A stretch of DNA of 64,000 bases from a bacterium HR28 (GTDB lineage Bacteria > Chloroflexota > Chloroflexia > Thermomicrobiales > Thermomicrobiaceae). Of this stretch, positions 4,900 to 62,325 are shown one piece after another. Numbering within the stretch: the first letter of the stretch is position 1; each line of letters starts with the position of its first letter. The stretch covers positions 310,001 through 374,000 of the forward strand of contig BEIE01000001.1 in the NCBI GenBank assembly GCA_002898255.1, in the 5' to 3' direction. The notes below the pieces were generated by a model that had not been told where the DNA came from, did no database searches, and saw only the letters and a program-made list of their open reading frames with translations. The position numbers and the translations under genes were made by a program.

Positions 4900-7800
4900 G
4901 TTCTGGCAGTACCTATGAGGGCTTGAAACATCTTCTCGCCGACCGACGTCTTGATTTCGTCCCAGAGTTCTGGCAGTACCTATGAGGGCTTGAAACACGT
5001 GAAGGCCTCGCGGATGCGGGCGCGGAGTGCGAGTTCTGGCAGTACCTATGAGGGCTTGAAACTCTCGTTCGACGCCAGCGACCTCGCGCAACTCGAGTTC
5101 TGGCAGTACCTATGAGGGCTTGAAACGAATCCGGATACGGTAGCGCTGGAGCACAGCATCGAGTTCTGGCAGTACCTATGAGGGCTTGAAACTGGCCATC
5201 GCCGAGCCAGGCATGCTCGTGCGGACGAAGTTCTGGCAGTACCTATGAGGGCTTGAAACAGGCGGTGTCCGGGGTACTCACGCATCGTTCACGGCGTTCT
5301 GGCAGTACCTATGAGGGCTTGAAACCTGCTTCAGCTTCCGCCACGAGCCGTCCCACTCGGCGTTCTGGCAGTACCTATGAGGGCTTGAAACGCTGGCCAG
5401 GCTGGTGGTCGACGGGGTACGCCGCGGAGTTCTGGCAGTACCTATGAGGGCTTGAAACTGCGCTGGCTGGTCTACGACCAGACCGGCGAGCTCGAGTTCT
5501 GGCAGTACCTATGAGGGCTTGAAACGTGCCTCCCCTGGCACGCCGGGGACACTCAGCTCGGGTTCTGGCAGTACCTATGAGGGCTTGAAACTCTCCTGCG
5601 TTACGTCTGGCTCGAACATCCCGACGGGTTCTGGCAGTACCTATGAGGGCTTGAAACGACGGGGTCACGCCAGCGATCGTCGAGCGGTCGCTGGTTCTGG
5701 CAGTACCTATGAGGGCTTGAAACCGAGGAGGTACTCCTGCGCGTCGTGTGGGATGCTCGCGTTCTGGCAGTACCTATGAGGGCTTGAAACTTCCTACGGC
5801 GATGGGTCGTCGTAATGAGCTTCTTCGTTCTGGCAGTACCTATGAGGGCTTGAAACGACTGGATCGTGTTGACGACAGCATTCACGATGTTCGTTCTGGC
5901 AGTACCTATGAGGGCTTGAAACTAGCGTCTCGGCGACGACTTCCTCCAACGAGTCGTCCGTTCTGGCAGTACCTATGAGGGCTTGAAACTCGCGATCGCG
6001 ACGAGACTCTTCACGACCACCTCGGTTCTGGCAGTACCTATGAGGGCTTGAAACCAGGTCGGGTGCCCGCACTGCACCGACTGGTGGGAGCGTTCTGGCA
6101 GTACCTATGAGGGCTTGAAACGTGGATGAGAGGATCGTCTGGATCGTCTCCTGCCAGGGAGTTCTGGCAGTACCTATGAGGGCTTGAAACGCTCGTCACC
6201 CTGCTCGCGTCCCGGCCGCACCCGCGAGTTCTGGCAGTACCTATGAGGGCTTGAAACTGTAGCCATCGAGCGCGCCGTCCTCCGCGAACTCGAGTTCTGG
6301 CAGTACCTATGAGGGCTTGAAACATAACTACATCGTCGCCTTCGCGCGCGGCGAGTCGGTTCTGGCAGTACCTATGAGGGCTTGAAACGCACATGGTACT
6401 GCTCGAGGATCGATTCCACCTGCTGTTCTGGCAGTACCTATGAGGGCTTGAAACTGTCTGAGACTCGCGTGACGCACAGCGGCGGCAAGGGTTCTGGCAG
6501 TACCTATGAGGGCTTGAAACGACCTGGTGTTGCGCGAACCAGTGGCGGTCCTCGTGAGTTCTGGCAGTACCTATGAGGGCTTGAAACGTACACCCAGCGC
6601 CCTTGTACCCCGACCGAGAACACTAGTTCTGGCAGTACCTATGAGGGCTTGAAACCTCGAACGCCCGCACCTGGAGCGTGTTCCCTTGTACCGTTCTGGC
6701 AGTACCTATGAGGGCTTGAAACGTGATCAGTGCGGTTGGTGGGCTGGCCCAGCAGCTGGTTCTGGCAGTACCTATGAGGGCTTGAAACGAGTATCGAGAG
6801 CGTGGTGATCATCTGCATGGCCATTGTTCTGGCAGTACCTATGAGGGCTTGAAACTCCAGTAGTCGCTGTGACAACGTGGACAGCTCACCAAGTTCTGGC
6901 AGTACCTATGAGGGCTTGAAACTGCTGGCAACTGCGGCAGCGGCATTTACGGGTCTTCGTTCTGGCAGTACCTATGAGGGCTTGAAACCACACACCGACA
7001 CACGGCACACACCGACACACCGGCAGTTCTGGCAGTACCTATGAGGGCTTGAAACGGAAGAAAGTACGGGAGCGCAAGAAGGACTTTTCGGGTTCTGGCA
7101 GTACCTATGAGGGCTTGAAACGATACCGACACCCACACCCACACCCACACCCACACACGAGTTCTGGCAGTACCTATGAGGGCTTGAAACCTGCGACGAC
7201 TGTCGCAGACTGGTCTGTCCTGGCCGCGTTCTGGCAGTACCTATGAGGGCTTGAAACTAGTACTTACTCTAGTATTTCCATATTCAACCCTAGTTCTGGC
7301 AGTACCTATGAGGGCTTGAAACCTCGGTGGCGGTTCCCTCGCGAACGAGCAGCTCTACGAGTTCTGGCAGTACCTATGAGGGCTTGAAACACACGGTCGA
7401 CTACGGGACGGCCTGGGGTTCCCCGTGTTCTGGCAGTACCTATGAGGGCTTGAAACGGCACGCGAGCGCACCGTCCAGCTCAGATCGACGCGCGTTCTGG
7501 CAGTACCTATGAGGGCTTGAAACTTCCAAGAACAGCTCGGCGGCATCGCGACGGAAGCGGTTCTGGCAGTACCTATGAGGGCTTGAAACGGCGAGGTGCG
7601 CCTTGGCGTCGCGCTGCGCCTCGCTCGTTCTGGCAGTACCTATGAGGGCTTGAAACCGAGATCGGGGAGGAGATGCACCGGAACCGGAACTCGTTCTGGC
7701 AGTACCTATGAGGGCTTGAAACGAGGATGAGGGCGCGGAGCATCTCGCGCAGTCGTTCCTGTTCTGGCAGTACCTATGAGGGCTTGAAACAACCGAGCGA

Positions 7801-48704: not shown

Positions 48705-50321
48705 ATGCGTCCGTCGACTAGTCGCGTCCGTTTCCACAGAGAGGCACGAGCTCCCCTCCTCGCGGGTTGCGCGACGTTCGCTCACTTACTGGGCACAACC
48801 CTCGGTCCGGCCGGTCGCGTGGTCGCCGTGAACCGGGTGCTCAAGGTGGGTCCTCCTGAAATGCTGGCAAGCGCTGCCTTGATTGCCCGGCGCACCTTCC
48901 GCTTGCCAGACCCCTTCCAGAATGCCGGTGCCATGCTCCTTCGTCACGCCGTGTGGCGGGTCTATGACCGCACCGGTGACGGAACCGCCACCACTGCTGT
49001 CCTGGCGTCTCGCCTACTCCACGAGCTCGATCGTCTTCTGACCGCTGGATATTCCCCGCTTCTGCTCACTCGGGGACTGGATCGCGCTGGCCACACGATC
49101 GCCGAGGTGCTCCGCTCCCTCGCTCGTCCTGTCGCTGACATCCGAGCACTCGCTGGTCTCCTCTCCTCTCTACACCTTTCGCCCGAAACCGAAGACGAAC
49201 TCCTTGACAGCCTCGAGGGGCTTGGTCCGGATGGGATCGTTTTGGTTGATCCGGATCATCACCCAGACGTCCAAGTGCAACTCATCCAGGGCGTGCACTG
49301 GCAGAGCCGGCTACTTGCGCCTGAACTCCTCCCACCGAACGTCGCCAAACTGCAGCTAGTGGAACCACGCATCCTGCTCACCGACTGGAAGCTCGAGGAA
49401 GCGTCCCAACTCCTCCCGCTGCTCGAGGAGTGTGCACGCCGCGGTGTGCGTCGCTTGCTTATTGTGGCCAGCGAACTCAGTGGGCACGCGCTCGCTCTTC
49501 TACGCACCAACCTCGAACGTGGCGTGCTTCACCAGGTCGCTGCCGTCGCAGCTCCCTCGGTAGGACTCCAGCAGACACGTATTTTGGAAGATCTTGCGGC
49601 ACTCACCGGTGGACACGCTTTTCTCCAAGCGGCTGGTGACCGGCCTGAGCATGCCCGCTACGCCCACCTTGGTAGTGCGCGTCAGGCACTGGTGACACGC
49701 TGGACGTTCGCGCTGGCAGGCGGACGCGGTGACCGAGCAGCGATCGAACGGCGTATCGCACTTGCCGAGGCCGAACTGGCTGCAGCTGACGACGAGTCCG
49801 CCCGCCGCCGCGCACGCGAGCGCCTCGGCCGCTTACGCGGCGCCTTCCTCCACATTCGCGTCGGTGGGACGACACCGACCGAACAGGAGTACCGGTGTCT
49901 TGCGCTCGAAAGTCTAGCCCGGACACTCCAGACCGCACTCGCCACGGGCGTAGTTCCAGGCGGCGGCGCAAGCTTCGCCGTCGCCGCACGCCGTCTCGCC
50001 GAACAGGAACTGTCCCTCCCACTCGAGGAACGTGCGGCATTTCATGCGGTTCGGACAGCATTGCTCGAACCACTGCGAACACTCGCGCACAATGCCGGAG
50101 TCGATCCCGCAGTGATTGTCCACCGGAGTCTGGAGGTTGCGCCCAACCTGGTCTACGATGTTCTGGCTGACCAGTGGATCGACCCATGGTCAGCGCCACT
50201 CCTTGATCCGCTCGGCGTCCTCGAAGCAGCGGTCGAGACTTCGCTCAGTCTTGGGCGCACCTTCCTAACCACCGACGTGCTCGTGCACCGCACCTGGCCA
50301 GCTTCCAGCGCCGAGCCATGA
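48705..50321 (+). CDS. Divergent GroEL/Hsp60-like protein
   Basis: The 538-residue protein is colinear with GroEL: LGTTLGPAGRVVAVNRV near residue 30, TGDGTATTAVLASRLL (GroEL GDGTTTATVL) near 90, an apical-like middle, and ATGVVPGGGASFAVAARRL near 410. The TKDG-type segment with GroEL Asp52 is replaced by KVGPPEM. By eye the position of Asp398 is also not Asp, while the Asp of GDGT is kept, so ATP hydrolysis is probably impaired or altered. The glycine/methionine tail is absent. It starts just after the sugar ABC unit and is followed 18 bases later by the propeller gene. Its role is unknown; the cell surely has a normal groEL elsewhere. Confidence 0.75.
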   Translation: MRPSTSRVRFHREARAPLLAGCATFAHLLGTTLGPAGRVVAVNRVLKVGPPEMLASAALIARRTFRLPDPFQNAGAMLLRHAVWRVYDRTGDGTATTAVLASRLLHELDRLLTAGYSPLLLTRGLDRAGHTIAEVLRSLARPVADIRALAGLLSSLHLSPETEDELLDSLEGLGPDGIVLVDPDHHPDVQVQLIQGVHWQSRLLAPELLPPNVAKLQLVEPRILLTDWKLEEASQLLPLLEECARRGVRRLLIVASELSGHALALLRTNLERGVLHQVAAVAAPSVGLQQTRILEDLAALTGGHAFLQAAGDRPEHARYAHLGSARQALVTRWTFALAGGRGDRAAIERRIALAEAELAAADDESARRRARERLGRLRGAFLHIRVGGTTPTEQEYRCLALESLARTLQTALATGVVPGGGASFAVAARRLAEQELSLPLEERAAFHAVRTALLEPLRTLAHNAGVDPAVIVHRSLEVAPNLVYDVLADQWIDPWSAPLLDPLGVLEAAVETSLSLGRTFLTTDVLVHRTWPASSAEP

Positions 50322-53300: not shown

Positions 53301-53329
53301 TTGACAAGTTGGCTTATTCGCCTTAATCT
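53301..53329 (+). promoter_or_regulatory. Promoter of the phosphotransferase/carboxylase operon
   Basis: TTGACA (53301-53306), 17 bases, TAATCT (53324-53329), the same -35/-10 pair as the peptide-binding protein promoters. It leaves a 5' leader of about 250 bases before ATG 53584. Confidence 0.65.
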
Positions 53330-53583
53330 TCATCTCTGAAGCTCAGTGGACGGGATACGAGCAGTCGAGGCCGAATCCGCACCGCGACGGACTCGAGTGA
53401 ACGTGAATCAGGCGTCTCGAGAGGCATTCACTGAGCGCTCATGGCAAGCCTTCAGAATTTCTGCAGCAATGCCGTGGCGGCTCATCGAGCGCACCAGTGG
53501 AGGAGCAAGAGCGGTAGAGATCCGGCCGAGGCGATATCCCGGACACGAGCACCGTGCGGCCGTGAGGAGAGCGGGGGTTGTAC

Positions 53584-55398
53584 ATGAGCGGAACACTGCG
53601 CTTTCCGAGCCCGTTCGAAGTTGAAACCCCAGCCGGCTGCGAGGGCTGGGAGGAAATGTACCCTGCGTACATGCGCTTTTCTGAAGCCCGTCGCGAATTA
53701 GAGGAGTCACGCCTCTGGTTCTATAACGGGATGCACTTTCCTGAACCAATTTCACCCTTTGACGTGATTACTGCCGAGGCATTTTACATCGCAATAGGTG
53801 AGATGAACGCCCGCTTCTTTTGCATTCCCCCTGCGATGGGTGTCGACTTCCGGGTCCTAAACGGGTACGTCTACATCAGCGGCATTCCCGTCCTCGATCC
53901 CCAGAAGATTCAGGAACGCGTGGAACTATTCCAGCGCCGTGCCGGCCATTACTATGAGAACTGGAGCACGATCTACGAGGACTGGAAGCAGCGCGTCATT
54001 AATGAGATTGAGGCGCTGAAAGCGATCCCCTTCCCCCACTTGCCGGAGATCGAGCCGGAGGAACTTGTCTTCGCGCATCGCGGCATCGGCACCTCGATGA
54101 CGGTCTTCGAGAGCTATAACCGAGTAATCGAAAGCCTCTTCCGCATTGCCCAGATCCACTGTGAGATCGTGATGATCGGTTTTGCCGCATACCTTACCTT
54201 CTATGATTTCTGCAAGCGCTTCTTCCCGGAGATCCCGGATCAGCAGATCACCCTGATGGTTTCTGGTATCGACGTCAGCATGATGCGCCCCGACAAGGAA
54301 CTCCGCGTACTCGCTCAGCGGGCTGTGGAACTCGGCCTCGCTGAGAAGTTCAGCGAAGGGCGATCCTGGCGGGAGGTCTTCGCTGATCTCGAGCAGCACG
54401 AGAACGGGCGTGCTTGGCTGCAAGAATGGAATGAGCGCGGCGAACCATGGTTCTGGATCAACGCCGGTGACGGCCTACAGCACCAGTTCCGCGCTTGGCG
54501 TGACGATCCGAGCCCAATCTTCCCTATCCTCATCGAATACGTGAAGCGAGCCGCACGCGGTGAGTCGATCGAGCGCGACACCTCCCAGGTGCGTGAGGAG
54601 CGAGACCGCATCACCGCCGAATATCGCGCCCTCCTCCCAAGTGAGGCCGATCGCCAGGCCTTCGATCAGCTCCTGGCACTCGTACGCCAGGTGTATTACG
54701 CGATCGAAGATCACAAGTTCTGGGTCGACCACTGGTTCATGAGCGTCTGGTGGAACAAGCTGCGGGAGCTCGGCGCACTTTTCGTCGAGCATGGCTTCTT
54801 CCGTGAAGTCGATGATCTCTTCTACTTGCATTGGACTGAGGTCAGCCAAGCTCTCACTGATCTCCTGCTTGGGTGGTCGATCGGCACCGAGCCTTATGGG
54901 CCGAAGCATTGGCCAGCAGTTATCGAACGACGCAAGGCCACCTTGGCCAAGCTTCGCGCGTTTAATCCGCCGCCAGCCCTCGGTGTCGTCCCGGAGCAGA
55001 TCGCCGATCCAGCCATCGTCATGCTGTGGGGCATTACACCGGAACGCCTGCGCGCCTGGATCACCAAGGACGAAGGCAATATCTTGCGCGGCTTCGCTGC
55101 CTCTCCAGGCATCGTCGAGGGGCCGGCCCGCGTTATCTTCGATGTCGCAGAGCTCAAGTCTGTTGAGGACGGCGAGATCCTCGTCTGCTCCGTCACCGAG
55201 CCAAGCTGGGCACCGGTCTTCGCCAAGGTACGCGGCATCGTCACCGATATCGGTGGGGTCATGTCCCACGCGGCGATCGTCGCCCGCGAGTACAGCGTCC
55301 CCGCCGTTCTAGGCACTGGCGTCGCAACCAAGCGAATTCGAACGGGTCAGCGACTGCGTGTGGATGGAAACGAGGGGACGGTGACCATCCTCGACTGA
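53584..55398 (+). CDS. PEP-utilising-enzyme-like phosphotransferase (phenylphosphate synthase alpha-like)
   Basis: The 604-residue protein lacks the ATP-grasp domain of PEP synthase. Its last about 90 residues are the swivelling phosphohistidine domain: GFAASPGIVEGPARVI, GEILVCSVTEPSWAPVF, IVTDIGGVMSHAAIVARE with His562, VPAVLGTG, and VDGNEGTVTIL. The size and the absence of ATP-grasp match the alpha subunit of phenylphosphate synthase, whose separate beta subunit supplies the ATP site; no such beta gene is in the window. The N-terminal about 500 residues, helical and aromatic-rich, would be the acceptor-binding part. ATG 53584 follows GCGGGGGTTG. It is first in an operon with biotin carboxylase-type genes. 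Confidence 0.7.
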   Translation: MSGTLRFPSPFEVETPAGCEGWEEMYPAYMRFSEARRELEESRLWFYNGMHFPEPISPFDVITAEAFYIAIGEMNARFFCIPPAMGVDFRVLNGYVYISGIPVLDPQKIQERVELFQRRAGHYYENWSTIYEDWKQRVINEIEALKAIPFPHLPEIEPEELVFAHRGIGTSMTVFESYNRVIESLFRIAQIHCEIVMIGFAAYLTFYDFCKRFFPEIPDQQITLMVSGIDVSMMRPDKELRVLAQRAVELGLAEKFSEGRSWREVFADLEQHENGRAWLQEWNERGEPWFWINAGDGLQHQFRAWRDDPSPIFPILIEYVKRAARGESIERDTSQVREERDRITAEYRALLPSEADRQAFDQLLALVRQVYYAIEDHKFWVDHWFMSVWWNKLRELGALFVEHGFFREVDDLFYLHWTEVSQALTDLLLGWSIGTEPYGPKHWPAVIERRKATLAKLRAFNPPPALGVVPEQIADPAIVMLWGITPERLRAWITKDEGNILRGFAASPGIVEGPARVIFDVAELKSVEDGEILVCSVTEPSWAPVFAKVRGIVTDIGGVMSHAAIVAREYSVPAVLGTGVATKRIRTGQRLRVDGNEGTVTILD

Positions 55399-55422
55399 CC
55401 AGTGAGAGTGACTCTCTCAGCT

Positions 55423-55457
55423 CCACCACGGGCCGTCTCATGACGACTCCGTGGTGG
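55423..55457 (+). terminator. Hairpin between phosphotransferase and biotin carrier genes
   Basis: The perfect 9-bp stem CCACCACGG with CCGTGGTGG encloses a 17-base loop and is followed by TTGTTGG. It may act as a partial terminator or an mRNA processing site that sets unequal expression of the operon genes. Confidence 0.4.
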
Positions 55458-55500
55458 TTGTTGGTGCAGTACGCTCGGAGAGGAAACACGGGAGGAGCGC

Positions 55501-56055
55501 ATGGAACTGACACCTGAGGACGTGCAAGAGATTCTTCGGATCCTCGAGCAGTCTTCGTTCGATGAACTCTACCTCGAGACACCACAACTGAAACTAATCG
55601 TGCGCCGCGGACAGGGAACCGGCACGGCGGTTCCAGTTCCACCGGCAAATCCGGTGCAGACAGCGGAGACACGCTCCGAGCCTCCACGAGCGACGCCAGT
55701 CAGCGAGGCAACTGCCCAGGCGGCGCCACCGACCGCCACGCCAGACAAGCCGGCCCCGGCAACAACAGCGGCGGATCGCCTCATCCCAATCTCAGCACCG
55801 CTCAAGGGCATCTTCTATCGCGCGCCGCGCCCTGGCGCTCCACCCTTCGTCGACGTCGGCAGCTCTGTGCAGGAAGACACCGTCGTCGGCATTATCGAAG
55901 TGATGAAGCTCATGCACTCGGTCCTCGCTGGAGTCCACGGCGAAATTGTTGAAGTCTGCGCCGAGAACGGCCAGGCAGTCGACCGCGGCCAGCCGCTCTT
56001 CCTCGTTCGCCCGAGCGAAGATGCCAGCGTCTCGTCGGCACCGGACGCATCGTGA
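55501..56055 (+). CDS. Biotin carboxyl carrier protein
   Basis: The 184-residue protein has an AccB-like start (VQEILRILEQSSFDELYLET), a Pro/Ala/Thr linker (about 42-92) and a biotinyl domain (about 95-172). The biotin motif is IIEVMKLMHS with Lys136. It carries carboxybiotin to the carboxyltransferase encoded 12 bases downstream. A biotin carboxylase subunit (AccC) is absent, so it must be shared from elsewhere. GAGGAGCGC precedes the ATG with good spacing. Confidence 0.92.
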   Translation: MELTPEDVQEILRILEQSSFDELYLETPQLKLIVRRGQGTGTAVPVPPANPVQTAETRSEPPRATPVSEATAQAAPPTATPDKPAPATTAADRLIPISAPLKGIFYRAPRPGAPPFVDVGSSVQEDTVVGIIEVMKLMHSVLAGVHGEIVEVCAENGQAVDRGQPLFLVRPSEDASVSSAPDAS

Positions 56056-56067
56056 GGGAGCTCAGTC

Positions 56068-57612
56068 ATGGCACCACGCATCCAGCTTATCGACGTGACA
56101 CTCCGTGACGGGAATCAGAGTCTCTGGAGCGCGATCGGGATCGATACGCGGACAGTCGTCGACGTCGCCCCTTGGCTTGATCGGGCAGGTTTCAAGTGCA
56201 TCGACTTCACGACCAGCACCCACATGGCAATCAGCGTGCGCTATCACCGGGAAGATCCCTATGAGAAGATCCGACTTGCCCGCCAGCTTATGCCGAACAC
56301 TCCTCTCATCTTCATGACCACCGGCATGCGTTTCATCACTTGGGAACCAGCGCCACGCGCCATCATCCGCTTAGCGATGCGCGTCATGGTCCGCCACGGC
56401 ATTCGCCGCATTCAGATCGTTGAGCCTATGAACAACATGAGTGCGCTCCTGGAGGCTGCCAGGATCGCGCGCGAGGAAGGAGCAGAACAGGTCGTCGCCG
56501 GGCTCGTCTACAGCATCAGCCCAGTTCATACGGACGAGTTCTACGTCCGCTGCGCCGAGGAACTCGCTCGGGAACGCCAACTCATCGATACGGTTTACAT
56601 CAAAGATCCGTCCGGACTCCTCACGCCAGAGCGGGTTGAGACGATCGTACCGGCGCTACGACGAGCACTGGGTGACGATATGCCGCTCGAGATCCATTCA
56701 CATTGCACCATGGGTATGGCACCCCTCTGTTATCTGCGGGCAGTGCAGCTGGGTGTCCAGACGGTGCACACGGCCATCCCACCACTCGCCGAAGGCACCT
56801 CACTACCATCCATCTACCGAACAGTGGCCAACCTGCGGGAACTCGGCTTTGAGGTCGATATCGACCTCGAACCGCTTGCCTACGTCTCCGAGTATCTCCA
56901 GCGTTTGGCACGCCGCAAGAAATTCCCGGTCGGTCGCCCACTGGAATACGATGTCTCCTATTACCGTCACCAGGTTCCTGGCGGGATGATCACGACTCTC
57001 CAGCGACATCTTAAAGAGGTAGGAGCAGAACACCGTTTCGATGCAGTGCTGGAGGAGATTGTCCGGGTACGAGCGGAGCTCGGCTACCCGATCATGGTCA
57101 CACCCTACTCGCAGCTCGTCGCCACGCAGGCGCTCCTGAATATCGAATCACGTGAGCGCTATGAGAAGGTGCCAGACGAGGTGATCAAGTATGTCCTTGG
57201 CCGCTTCGGCCCGCCTCCTGCACCGATCGACCCTTGGGTGAAGGAACGCGTCCTCTCTCTCCCGCGTGCGCGGGAACTCGACGTTCCTATCCCCGAGCCG
57301 ACTCTTGAAGAACTGCGGCGCACGTTCGGTGCGACCATCTCGGATGAGGAACTCCTCCTACGGTGGGCCCTCCCGGCCGACCAGGTCGATGCAGCACTGG
57401 CCCGCAAGATAGGCCACCCTGCGCCGACCGGGAACAACCTCACGCATCCGATCGCACAGCTCATCGCCGAAGTCGCCCGGAAACCATCGATCAGCTACTT
57501 CCACCTCGAGAAGGACGGTATTCGTCTCACGCTTAGCCGGCAGAACGGTCTGCCCCTGAGCGTGCAAGCGTCGACGGAGGGGAGTATCCCGCATGACCGT
57601 CACCCAGCGTGA
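56068..57612 (+). CDS. Biotin-dependent carboxyltransferase (PycB/OadA/5S type)
   Basis: The 514-residue protein has the HMGL-like TIM barrel start (IQLIDVTLRDGNQSLWS), the carboxylated lysine in VYIKDPSGLLTP (Lys179), and metal ligands IHSHCTMG (His210, His212). The conserved C-terminal carboxylase domain also fits (HQVPGGMITTLQRHL, RVRAELGYPIMVTPYSQLVATQA). Relatives transfer CO2 between carboxybiotin and pyruvate or oxaloacetate. The usual RDAHQS is RDGNQS here, and the acceptor may differ. There is no fused biotin domain; the separate carrier lies upstream. The gene end overlaps the HAD gene by 20 bases. Confidence 0.85.
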   Translation: MAPRIQLIDVTLRDGNQSLWSAIGIDTRTVVDVAPWLDRAGFKCIDFTTSTHMAISVRYHREDPYEKIRLARQLMPNTPLIFMTTGMRFITWEPAPRAIIRLAMRVMVRHGIRRIQIVEPMNNMSALLEAARIAREEGAEQVVAGLVYSISPVHTDEFYVRCAEELARERQLIDTVYIKDPSGLLTPERVETIVPALRRALGDDMPLEIHSHCTMGMAPLCYLRAVQLGVQTVHTAIPPLAEGTSLPSIYRTVANLRELGFEVDIDLEPLAYVSEYLQRLARRKKFPVGRPLEYDVSYYRHQVPGGMITTLQRHLKEVGAEHRFDAVLEEIVRVRAELGYPIMVTPYSQLVATQALLNIESRERYEKVPDEVIKYVLGRFGPPPAPIDPWVKERVLSLPRARELDVPIPEPTLEELRRTFGATISDEELLLRWALPADQVDAALARKIGHPAPTGNNLTHPIAQLIAEVARKPSISYFHLEKDGIRLTLSRQNGLPLSVQASTEGSIPHDRHPA

Positions 57613-58450
57613 CCTACTCCGTGTCCGTGCATTCGTGTTTGATGTCGACGGTACCCTCATCTTATCGGAGAGCCCTGATTGGAGCGGCGCGATCCCCTTA
57701 CCTGGTGCAGTCGAACTCCTCACCTGGCTCAACCAGCACGGGTATCCGTTCGCACTCTTCACCAGCGGGAGCACTGAACTCCCGGGGACATACGCTGCAC
57801 GTCTGCGCGCAGCTGGACTTCCGGTGGCGGACTGGCAGGTGGTCACGACCGGAGTCACAGCAGCCGAGATCATCGCGACAGAATATCCGGGCCGCGCCGT
57901 TTTCGTCCTCGGGGAAAGAGGAACGCGGGAGCCACTTCTGGCCCGCGGGATCCCGGTCGTCGAGGGAGAGGACGGCAAACACGCTGGCGTTGTCCTGGTT
58001 GGATGGAGTCGTTCGCTGACGTATGATCAACTCGACATCGCGTGCCGAGCCGTCTGGAACGGGGCCGATCTTCTGGTCACCTCCGCTGCTCGGGCGTTTG
58101 TCTCGAAGCAGGGGCTGCGGCCCGGCTGGTCATGGTCGATCGCAGTCGCGATCGCCGAAACGACGGGGAAAGCGCCGCGTGTCGTCGGCAAACCATCGGT
58201 TGAGGCGCTTCGCGCCGTCGCTCGGCTCCTTGGGACCGTTCCAGCCGATGTCGCGGTCGTCGGTGACGATCCGGATCTTGAACTTCGGATGGGCCGGGAA
58301 GCCGGCTCAGTGACGATCCAGGTTCGAACCGGACGGGGCAGCGAACCGGTCGAGACTCCAGAGATCGGTGACCTCGTGATACGCGGTGTCGACGAGCTAC
58401 TTGTGTTGCTCCACGCGATTCGTGCGAAGGAGGATGCCCCGGACGAGTGA
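57593..58450 (+). CDS. HAD-superfamily phosphatase, NagD-like
   Basis: The 285-residue protein has FVFDVDGTL (Asp17, Asp19), LFTSGSTELPGTYAARLRAAG (motif II region), GKPSVEALRAVA (motif III lysine) and VVGDDPDLELRMGREAG, with a type C2 cap as in NagD/p-nitrophenyl phosphatases. Its ribosome-binding site GGAGGGGAG lies within the end of the carboxyltransferase gene, which it overlaps by 20 bases. In context it could remove phosphate from a product of the phosphotransferase; this is inference. Confidence 0.82.
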   Translation: MTVTQRDLLRVRAFVFDVDGTLILSESPDWSGAIPLPGAVELLTWLNQHGYPFALFTSGSTELPGTYAARLRAAGLPVADWQVVTTGVTAAEIIATEYPGRAVFVLGERGTREPLLARGIPVVEGEDGKHAGVVLVGWSRSLTYDQLDIACRAVWNGADLLVTSAARAFVSKQGLRPGWSWSIAVAIAETTGKAPRVVGKPSVEALRAVARLLGTVPADVAVVGDDPDLELRMGREAGSVTIQVRTGRGSEPVETPEIGDLVIRGVDELLVLLHAIRAKEDAPDE

Positions 58451-58461
58451 GGAGCTGGGCA

Positions 58462-59793
58462 ATGGCCGAGCGACGGTACTGGAATGAGGTGATGGAGACC
58501 ATTGATCCAGAACGTCTCTGGCAGCTGGAAGACGAGCGGCTCCGCTGGCAGCTCCGTTGGGTGTGGGAACGCTCTCCGTTCTACCGGCAGAAGTTCAGTG
58601 AGGCCGGGATTGATCCACTTACGATCGGACGCGACTCGTTACACCTACTTCCATTCACCGTCAAAGATGAAGTGCGACGCACACAGCAAGATTACCCACC
58701 GCTTGGCGGACATGCCTGTGTCCCATTGCATGAGGTCGTCCGGATCCATGCGTCCTCGGGGACAACGGGTCAACCAACGCTCGTCGGATTGACTGAGGCG
58801 GACGCCAGGGCATGGAATGAGGTCCTCGCCCGATTCTTCTGGACCACCGGCGTGAGACCAGGAACACGTGTTTGGCTTGCGGTCACCCTGGGCTGGTACA
58901 TCGCCGGGCTGAGCTTCTACGAGGCACTTCGCGCGATCCAGGCTACTGTCTATCCGTCCGGCACGATGGAGGCTACGCGAACCTTCAACGTGATCCAGCG
59001 GGCCGGGGTCGACTACATGGTCTCGAGCCCCACCTTCGTCAACTTCCTCACTCATGTTGCCCGCGAGCGGCTCGGGATTGATCCGGCCTCGCTCGGCATC
59101 AAAGCGATGGCGTTGGGTGGCGAGCCTGGAGCTGGTGTTCCCCAAATCCGCCAGCAGATCGAGGAAACCTGGGGCTGCAAGGTCTACGACGCGATGGGAA
59201 CTGCAGACTTCGCACCGATCCTTTGGACGGAGTGCGAAGCACAGGCCGGCATGCACTTCGTCGGACAAGGCTTCGTGATCGCCGAGTTCATCGAACCCGA
59301 GACCGGTCGTCCTATCGAGCCGAAGGAAGGGATGCTCGCTGAACTCGTCTACACGGCAATCCAACGCGAGTGTGTCCCACTGATTCGCTTTCGAATCGGT
59401 GATCTCGTACGAATTGAGGGAACAGGGCGATGTGAATGCGGCCGTACTGGGATCCGGATCCGCTGCGTCGGTCGTGTCGATGACATGTTTATCGTCCGCG
59501 GCGTGAACGTCTTCCCCAGTGCGGTCGCTGACGTCATCGCCTCCTTCCGCCCGCGCGTCACAGGTGAATTCCAGATCCGGTTGCCAGCTCGCGGACTGCC
59601 TATCGATCCTCCTGTCCCCATCGTCGTGGAGCTCGGCCCGGAGCCCGGTGACCTGCACAAGCTCAAGCGTGATCTCGAAGAGGCGATCCGTGCCCAGCTC
59701 ATCTTCCGTGCTACCGTCCAACTCGTTCCCAAAGGGGAACTCACACCAACTGGCACGATGAAGCGTCAGGTTATCGTCCGCGGCGAAGCATAG
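58462..59793 (+). CDS. Phenylacetate-CoA ligase-like AMP-forming CoA ligase (PaaK family)
   Basis: The 443-residue protein follows PaaK closely: YWNEVMETIDPERLWQLEDE, WERSPFYRQKFSEAGI, LPFTVKDEVRRTQQDYPPLG, the AMP motif SSGTTGQPT (98-106), GGEPGAG, YDAMGTADF, LIRFRIGDL, and IRCVGRVDDMFIVRGVNVFP. Such ligases make acyl-CoA thioesters of aromatic or other carboxylic acids with ATP. ATG 58462 follows GAGGAG. It is the last gene of the operon and should activate the acid formed by the preceding enzymes. The substrate cannot be read from the sequence. Confidence 0.88.
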   Translation: MAERRYWNEVMETIDPERLWQLEDERLRWQLRWVWERSPFYRQKFSEAGIDPLTIGRDSLHLLPFTVKDEVRRTQQDYPPLGGHACVPLHEVVRIHASSGTTGQPTLVGLTEADARAWNEVLARFFWTTGVRPGTRVWLAVTLGWYIAGLSFYEALRAIQATVYPSGTMEATRTFNVIQRAGVDYMVSSPTFVNFLTHVARERLGIDPASLGIKAMALGGEPGAGVPQIRQQIEETWGCKVYDAMGTADFAPILWTECEAQAGMHFVGQGFVIAEFIEPETGRPIEPKEGMLAELVYTAIQRECVPLIRFRIGDLVRIEGTGRCECGRTGIRIRCVGRVDDMFIVRGVNVFPSAVADVIASFRPRVTGEFQIRLPARGLPIDPPVPIVVELGPEPGDLHKLKRDLEEAIRAQLIFRATVQLVPKGELTPTGTMKRQVIVRGEA

Positions 59794-60090: not shown

Positions 60091-61059
60091 TCATCCTGCC
60101 AGCGCGCGCTTTAGCACCGCCAAGATCTCTGCACTCGCTCTCTGGCTGACCCACGCTGAAGGCGCAAAGGCATCAAAGCCATGAAACGCACCAGCATAGA
60201 CGTGGAGTTCCGTCGGCACCCCCGCCTGCATTAACCGCTGAGCATAGGCAATGTCCTCGTCGCGAAAGAGGTCGGCAGTCCCAACCATGATGTACGCGGG
60301 CGGCAATCCCGCCAGAGTCTCCGCACGGGCTGGTGCCGCATAGGCCGGAACATCGGAGCTCCCTGGCTCACAGCCCAAATAGGCTTGCCAACCGATCTGG
60401 TTCCACTCCCGTGTCCAGATCAGCCGTCGGTCGGTGATCTCATGGCTTGACGGAGTCTCATTCCGGTCATCAAGCATTGGGTAGATCAGCAGTTGAAAAC
60501 GCACCGTGAACTCACCCCGATCGCGAACCAGGAGTGCGAGTGCTGCGGCTAGCCCACCGCCGGCACTCGCCCCAGCGATCGCTATTCGCTGGGGGTCAAC
60601 GCCCAGTTCCGCTGCCCGCCGAACGAGCCAATGCAGCGCTGCGTAGCAGTCCTCTAGTGGTGCCGGGTATGGATGCTCCGGTGCAAGCCGGTAGTCGACC
60701 GAGGCAACCAGAGCGGGCAACGAGTGGGCGAACTCCGCACACTGCAAATCGTTCATCTCCGGCGAGCCCATAACGTAACCGCCACCATGAATCCAGAGGA
60801 GCGCCGGGAGCGGTCCGCGCGCCTCTGTCGGACGGTATAGGCGCACACGTACAGCCGTACCGTCCTTGGTATTTGGCGCGAACTCATCTGTGATCGCAAC
60901 GTCGGACGGCAGTGGCGGAGCGAGTTGGGCAAGCGCCTCGCGCAGGATTGCAAGTCGCCGACGCGCCATAGGAATGTCATGAAGATCAAGCAAGAACTCT
61001 TCCGGTACTGCCGCAAGCGCCTCTGCAAGTTCCGGATCGAGCCGGTCCAGGACAGACAT
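60091..61059 (-). CDS. Alpha/beta-hydrolase, hormone-sensitive-lipase (HSL) family esterase
   Basis: The 322-residue enzyme has the family IV oxyanion motif HGGGYVMGSP (91-100), DYRLAPEHPYPAPLED, the nucleophile GASAGG (Ser164), the acid in ADLFRDED (Asp262) and the base in FHGFD (His292). It should hydrolyse short-chain esters in the cytoplasm; no signal is present. It is transcribed towards the operon ending at 59793 and is a single gene. Confidence 0.9.
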   Translation of the reverse strand: MSVLDRLDPELAEALAAVPEEFLLDLHDIPMARRRLAILREALAQLAPPLPSDVAITDEFAPNTKDGTAVRVRLYRPTEARGPLPALLWIHGGGYVMGSPEMNDLQCAEFAHSLPALVASVDYRLAPEHPYPAPLEDCYAALHWLVRRAAELGVDPQRIAIAGASAGGGLAAALALLVRDRGEFTVRFQLLIYPMLDDRNETPSSHEITDRRLIWTREWNQIGWQAYLGCEPGSSDVPAYAAPARAETLAGLPPAYIMVGTADLFRDEDIAYAQRLMQAGVPTELHVYAGAFHGFDAFAPSAWVSQRASAEILAVLKRALAG

Positions 61060-61443: not shown

Positions 61444-62325
61444 TCAAGCGCGCGCCGACTCAATCGGTTCGAATGCCGCGACAATCATGCTGTAGTAGCT
61501 CGGTGCCTCGTAGCAGAGCACCTCGCCACGTAGTGGCACTCGTCGCATGACTCCGGCGAGCATCAGTGTCTGCCACAAGCCGTCAATCGCGGCGTTCGTC
61601 GCCTGCTCTTCCGGAAGATCGATCAGCCGACCAGGATCGTTGGCCCGGAGCGCTTCAACAACGAGCTGGTCGACCACTGCCGCATCAGGGTGGAAGCCAT
61701 ACGGGCCGTCTGCCCGATGTGTATGGGCCCAATCGCAGCTCGCGATAAAGGCGATCCGTCGCCCGTCACGCTCGGCTGCCAACGCCACCGCCTCGCCGAA
61801 CGTCACCAGGAGCTCCCGCGGGACACGTCGCGATGGCGTCACTATCACGACAGGCGGGCCGCTGTCCTCTTCGGGCGGCGGCGCAAGGACGTCCCCATAC
61901 CCAACCAGATTGCGCCCGTGACCGAGAAACCAAAGTGGAGTCATTGTCCCCCAGTCGAGCGGAATCACTGATTGGTCCCAACGATTTCCGGCAAATCCGG
62001 CCAGTGCGATCGGTACGCCGAGTTCACGCGCCGCAGCAGCGATCCCCTCGGTGGCCATACGATCCAGTGGCACATTCATCTCAATCTGCCGCCCGTGCCA
62101 GCGCAACGTTCCCGCACCGCGCGCTGTGTAGGCCAGGCAAACCATGCCGTCCACGCGGACTCCGTGCGGCGTGGCCACCACCAGGACATCCGGCCGGGCA
62201 GCGGCGCAGCGCTCTCCCAGCTGGAACATCGCAGCGCGCGTTTGTAGACCGCCCTCCGCATCCGCGGAGAGTTCCGGGATAATCGGAAAACCGTGCGGGG
62301 CGACCGCTCCGAAAACGATTCCCAT
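61444..62325 (-). CDS. Class III extradiol dioxygenase-like protein (LigB/MEMO fold)
   Basis: The 293-residue protein has the LigB-superfamily histidines: VAPHG (His11), VVATPHGVRV (His54), and ASCDWAHTH near residue 200. It also has a central VIPLDWGTMTPLWFLGHG segment typical of the beta subunit of protocatechuate/aromatic ring dioxygenases. It could cleave a catechol-like ring with Fe(II), or belong to the MEMO-like branch of unknown role. Its nearness to a PaaK-type ligase and esterase makes aromatic breakdown plausible. It is divergent from the haem protein gene. Confidence 0.75.
   Translation of the reverse strand: MGIVFGAVAPHGFPIIPELSADAEGGLQTRAAMFQLGERCAAARPDVLVVATPHGVRVDGMVCLAYTARGAGTLRWHGRQIEMNVPLDRMATEGIAAAARELGVPIALAGFAGNRWDQSVIPLDWGTMTPLWFLGHGRNLVGYGDVLAPPPEEDSGPPVVIVTPSRRVPRELLVTFGEAVALAAERDGRRIAFIASCDWAHTHRADGPYGFHPDAAVVDQLVVEALRANDPGRLIDLPEEQATNAAIDGLWQTLMLAGVMRRVPLRGEVLCYEAPSYYSMIVAAFEPIESARA

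Follow-up and report, generated by a model that had tools for sequence, protein, structure and literature searches.

The closest described system is the Hpe pathway of Rhodococcus rhodochrous GD02. In this strain acetovanillone and 4-hydroxyacetophenone are phosphorylated by HpeHI; the biotin-dependent HpeCBA accepts these ketones for carboxylation only in their phosphorylated form; HpeD, a relative of NagD, takes the phosphate off; and HpeE and HpeF are proposed to form and cleave a coenzyme A (CoA) ester (PMC9618137). HpeH is phosphorylated at His581 within the motif T/SxxGGxxxH and is similar to the part of rifampin phosphotransferase that comprises the swivel and substrate domains (PMC12167813). 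According to PMC9618137 and PMC13101465, Sphingobium lignivorans SYK-6 carries acvABCDEF, which is homologous to hpeHICBAD and has the same order, and VceA/VceB carry out the final steps; the former source places HpeE and HpeF in GD02 and not in SYK-6, so HpeE does not define the whole kind. Here we describe a five-gene operon in a stretch of 64,000 nucleotides (the window) from bacterium HR28, a member of the Thermomicrobiaceae (assembly GCA_002898255.1, contig BEIE01000001.1, here C1, bases 310001-374000). Very probably, this operon is the carboxylase half of the Hpe/Acv-type (hydroxyphenylethanone/acetovanillone) pathway in a Thermomicrobium species. The genome comprises 3.12 Mb in 8 contigs, and a second locus with further parts lies on contig C2.

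The five genes are all located on the forward strand, at the positions reported in the initial annotation, and their families were confirmed with Pfam and NCBIfam. The first gene (53584..55398, ATG start, 604 amino acids; PF00391, NF006151) encodes an HpeH/AcvA-like kinase alpha subunit, termed alpha1, with substrate-binding and swivel domains and, as had been noted, no ATP-grasp domain in Pfam. It is followed by an HpeC-type biotin carboxyl carrier protein (55501..56055, 184 amino acids; PF00364 and the BCCP model) with the biotin lysine Lys136 in EVMKLM, and by a carboxyltransferase subunit of the Hpe/Xcc type (phospho-hydroxyphenylethanone carboxylase; 56068..57612, 514 amino acids; PF00682 and PF02436) with Lys179 and His210/His212. 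Directly downstream of the carboxyltransferase, as is typical of Hpe/Acv sets, lies the gene of a NagD-like HAD-IIA phosphatase of the HpeD type (57593..58450, 285 amino acids; PF13344/PF13242). The last gene (58447..59793, 448 amino acids from GTG 58447; PF00501 and PF14535) encodes a CoA ligase that sits where other hpe clusters have HpeE; it is of the PaaK type and not of the acetoacetyl-CoA synthetase-like HpeE type. This ligase is 77% identical to its orthologue in a Sphaerobacter cluster and, because the orthologue starts there, ATG 58462 is a more likely start than GTG 58447. The catalytic residues predicted earlier (His562 of alpha1, Lys136, Lys179 and HSH at 210-212) were located precisely. 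Intergenic gaps of 102 and 12 bases, the others being negative, give the five genes an operon-like spacing. That they share one promoter, as also proposed, is unproven: no sigma-70-type promoter was scored upstream of alpha1, where a bare TTGACA at about 53303 stands without a good -10 element.

A biotin carboxylase and an ATP-grasp subunit, listed as missing in the initial annotation with the advice to look for them elsewhere in the genome, are both encoded on C2. At 405.8-410.3 kb of this contig we found a second alpha subunit (alpha2), an HpeI-like PPDK_N (ATP-grasp) protein 25 bases after it, and a convergent AccC. The genome hence encodes a two-part dikinase, with HpeH-type alpha subunits bearing the phosphohistidine (alpha1, alpha2) and a separate ATP-grasp protein next to alpha2, as well as a three-part biotin carboxylase of the Hpe/Xcc branch, with carrier and carboxyltransferase in the window and AccC beside alpha2 and its ATP-grasp partner. 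Another AccC, on C1, adjoins fabG, fabH and a short open reading frame resembling a ribosomal protein; because of these fatty-acid gene neighbours it is taken as fitting fatty-acid synthesis and was left out of the pathway. The C2 locus is syntenic with a locus of Thermomicrobium roseum that is carried on its 918-kb plasmid, which suggests that C2 may be a second replicon. C2 also encodes an HpeF-like amidohydrolase, 83% identical to the amidohydrolase-2 protein of the Sphaerobacter cluster. In that cluster, from a Sphaerobacter-like genome (G007), the parts stand together on one strand: AccC and, further along, alpha2, ATP-grasp subunit, alpha1, carrier, carboxyltransferase, HAD phosphatase, PaaK-type ligase and amidohydrolase-2 (HpeF). 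A second Sphaerobacter genome (L049/L091) has the same one-cluster arrangement. When co-occurrence in the family was analysed in 21 genomes, 14 good ones being counted, the carboxyltransferase, alpha1, alpha2 and the C2-type ATP-grasp subunit were present in the same 6 of 14.

Conservation of the set in relatives was the check originally suggested, and one genome per species was scanned with a carboxyltransferase alignment (A1). The scan yielded 430 carboxyltransferase relatives, from which 80 loci were kept; these and six further loci (86 in all) were typed by tblastn with known proteins, the local gene caller having erred in loci of high G+C content such as L048. Counts are raw, without a background set, and refer to the 53 scan loci that were well flanked (at least 5.5 kb before and at least 2.5 kb after the carboxyltransferase). 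Beside the carboxyltransferase a carrier was present in 52/53, a HAD phosphatase and a biotin carboxylase in 46/53 each, and kinase, carrier and HAD phosphatase together in 40/53, so that the check came out in favour of the set. Indeed, the gene set is conserved across many phyla. On the Rhizobium plasmid pRlBT01c, genes for alpha, beta, carrier, biotin carboxylase, carboxyltransferase, HAD phosphatase, CoA ligase and amidohydrolase are annotated in one run, and a Rhodococcus locus (L085) has the identical order. The alpha and ATP-grasp pair was found in 28/53, and 18 of the remaining loci have a Tm-1-like (UPF0261) protein. Among all typed carboxylase loci this protein replaces the two-part kinase in 27/86, including L082 (8874-10121) and L084 (6963-8195). 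The latter, from the bisphenol A degrader Sphingomonas bisphenolicum, also encodes a thioesterase and a beta-keto acid cleavage protein ahead of the carboxylase genes (5579-6906), which presumably resemble the VceB/VceA pair. The Tm-1-like protein probably corresponds to MarK, a single-component kinase mentioned in PMC13101465.

From these genes we infer the following reactions in this organism. The two-part dikinase, made of alpha1 and/or alpha2 with the C2 ATP-grasp subunit, would phosphorylate the phenolic hydroxyl of a 4-hydroxyphenyl methyl ketone via His562. The C2 biotin carboxylase with the carrier and carboxyltransferase of the window would carboxylate the phosphorylated ketone at its acetyl methyl group, and dephosphorylation by the HAD-IIA phosphatase would then yield a 4-hydroxyphenyl beta-ketopropionate. 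From this the PaaK-type ligase would form the CoA ester, which the HpeF-like amidohydrolase would cleave to a hydroxybenzoate and acetyl-CoA. Likely substrates are 4-hydroxyacetophenone, acetovanillone or acetosyringone. The initial annotation had arrived at phosphorylation, biotin-dependent carboxylation, dephosphorylation and CoA activation. The chemistry of this scheme is well supported by the conserved gene set and by GD02, where the first three steps were shown with purified enzymes (PMC9618137). Its novelty is not: the argument that known phosphorylation-carboxylation routes work without biotin, hence a new pathway, was mistaken, as the Hpe/Acv pathway published in 2022 does just this (PMC9618137). 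Compared with hpeHICBADEF of GD02, kinase alpha, ATP-grasp beta, carrier, biotin carboxylase, carboxyltransferase, NagD-like phosphatase, CoA ligase and amidohydrolase-type hydrolase are all in the genome, and stand together in the sister genus, whereas the Thermomicrobium set is divided between two contigs, has an extra alpha paralogue and uses a PaaK-type ligase for HpeE. These peculiarities of Thermomicrobium, including two HpeH-type subunits per one HpeI, are real in the sequence, and their roles are predicted. Kinase, carboxylase and phosphatase genes are homologous to those of SYK-6 as described for Acv, but in place of VceA/VceB the genome here has a ligase of the PaaK type and a protein resembling HpeF. 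The Xcc carboxylase of Aromatoleum aromaticum EbN1, which acts on 4-hydroxyacetophenone, is described in PMC9618137 as a biotin carboxylase of three parts that is homologous to HpeCBA and has homologues of hpeHI next to it; it differs in serving an anaerobic ethylphenol route.

The motif TDIGGVMSH of alpha1 carries His562 and fits T/SxxGGxxxH. An AlphaFold2 model of alpha1 (mean pLDDT 88, pTM 0.88) had rifampin phosphotransferase as its best fold match (Z 23.4, root-mean-square deviation 4.0, 484 residues), and the fold search named no family more specific than this one. Alpha2 is 66% identical to alpha1. The two form sister clades (support 98/96 for both clades together), and since each clade contains both Thermomicrobium and Sphaerobacter, the duplication, as read from the sequences, is older than the split of the genera. 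Both alphas retain the catalytic histidine and almost all of the 136 near-invariant HpeH positions, and are separated by 22 fixed differences, among them an alanine at position 191 of alpha1 (W191A, counted from the TTG start) in place of the tryptophan of other HpeH proteins. It is conceivable, if rather doubtful, that the two HpeH-type subunits flanking one ATP-grasp subunit in Sphaerobacter are a new dikinase arrangement, in which the differing pockets, served by one ATP-grasp partner in separate dimers or in a heterodimer, would give these thermophiles a broader range of phenolic ketones. Two further alphas were noticed in the genome. On the reverse strand of contig C6 (L046, 6448-10781) a third HpeH/PpsA-like alpha (47% to alpha1), a HAD-IIA phosphatase (42% to that of the window) and a LigM/DesA-type O-demethylase stand in a row with no carboxylase, possibly a phosphorylate-demethylate-dephosphorylate module. 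A fourth, distant alpha (29%) on C2 (L045, 4130-13662) has its own ATP-grasp subunit beside a cyclase-like gene and molybdenum-hydroxylase genes, and is predicted to be part of another two-part dikinase.

An ordinary split pyruvate carboxylase, in which carboxyltransferase and carrier work with an AccC encoded elsewhere to form oxaloacetate and the adjacent genes have no part, would explain why NCBIfam gives PycB as the top match to the carboxyltransferase (330 bits) and why PycB, OadA and transcarboxylase 5S are its homologues of known structure. This match is, however, below the 402-bit cut-off of the model. We built a FastTree phylogeny of 109 carboxyltransferase-type proteins, 87 of Hpe type including the window protein and 22 PycB from Chloroflexota. 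A single branch with 100% local support, a FastTree value and not a bootstrap, in a tree where a few long branches were noted, divides the window protein and the 86 others from all 22 PycB. The initial annotation had named a grouping with PycB as the outcome that would speak against its scheme, and the tree does not give it. The nearest named relative of the organism is Thermomicrobium sp. CFH 73360, whose carboxyltransferase is 97% identical. The fold and the metal/carbamate-lysine site are common to PycB, transcarboxylase 5S and the window protein: the aspartate of RDG, Lys179 and both histidines are retained in the Hpe-type and PycB groups. The substrate site differs. The arginine of LLRG (position 85), which we take to contact pyruvate in pyruvate carboxylase, is invariant in 22/22 PycB and is threonine in 79/87 Hpe-type proteins, with Thr85 in the window protein. 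Likewise, where PycB has an invariant Gly-Gly-Ala-Thr-Phe stretch, Arg and Asn, the Hpe group conserves Thr/Ser-Ser-Thr-His-Met, Thr and Arg. We rejected the PycB assignment on tree and residues, and the kinase, carrier and phosphatase genes conserved alongside the carboxyltransferase add to making it very improbable. Because the set is kept together and its carboxyltransferase stands apart from PycB, the functional idea survives; the claim of novelty falls with the pathway already known.

Phenylphosphate-type phenol carboxylation by PpsAB and a Ppc carboxylase would account for the kinase, as alpha1 is ~44% identical to Azoarcus PpsA, and PpsAB and CreHI belong to the same two-part dikinase family. 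Those kinases precede a UbiD-type carboxylase or P450 oxidation, whereas here a biotin carboxylase follows. The Azoarcus cluster (L086) has UbiD-type ppcABDG; in the window set Pfam gave none of these genes and instead a biotin carrier and a carboxyltransferase. This reading was rejected and may practically be set aside. An alternative closer to the Hpe/Acv assignment is that the same chemistry acts on another phenolic or enolisable ketone, such as a methyl ketone without an aromatic ring or a lignin ketone of greater bulk; the two alphas would then handle two substrates and share a single ATP-grasp subunit. The old duplication with the catalytic histidine kept in both clades, the 22 fixed differences including W191A, and the third alpha with its own HAD phosphatase and LigM-type demethylase would suit this. 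We regard it as unlikely, since the carboxyltransferase is ~45-53% identical to Hpe-type proteins across its length, which favours the same substrate class.

Several observations weigh against the Hpe/Acv assignment. The alpha subunits are about as similar to HpeH as to PpsA and CreH (~45%), so that alpha alone cannot name the substrate, and the alpha tree is unresolved at its base. The biotin carboxylase falls outside the Hpe biotin carboxylases of other phyla. The likeness to the assayed GD02 and SYK-6 proteins is drawn from homologues and published descriptions. The six genomes in which the parts co-occur come from just two genera and represent few independent events; two genomes of the family have HpeF but lack the carboxyltransferase, and in G002, where the carboxyltransferase is present, HpeF was not found. 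A lower route from hydroxybenzoate is presumed, and PobA (TIGR02360) and an intradiol dioxygenase (PF00775), both sought in the genome, were not found. On the side of the assignment, five or six matches to LigM/DesA-type O-demethylases per genome (G000, G001, G002, G006 and G007) suggest that these thermophiles may grow on methoxylated aromatics, and would fit methoxylated substrates or products such as vanillate or syringate.

Two reverse-strand genes downstream of the operon also accompany the set in L089 and L090. An alpha/beta-hydrolase esterase (60091..61059; PF07859) adjoins the five genes in Thermomicrobium only and not in Sphaerobacter, and is treated as a neighbour. A LigB-type extradiol dioxygenase-like protein (61444..62325; PF02900), 1.7 kb past the operon, is the sole LigB protein found in the genome and might act in ring cleavage. 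Elsewhere in the window (48705-50321) we noticed an open reading frame of 538 amino acids that is chaperonin-like and apparently very divergent from GroEL.

A literature search for Thermomicrobium and acetovanillone found no paper, and the main texts surveyed on the Hpe/Acv pathway do not name Thermomicrobium or Sphaerobacter; first sight is not claimed. What seemed an incomplete new pathway would be half of a known one, divided between two contigs. The assignment would extend the lignin-ketone pathway, known from the mesophiles Rhodococcus and Sphingobium, to the thermophiles Thermomicrobium and Sphaerobacter and, if true, would offer thermostable versions of the kinase, carboxylase and phosphatase for studies of acetovanillone. 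The paired alphas would be a natural test of how two-part dikinases set substrate choice.

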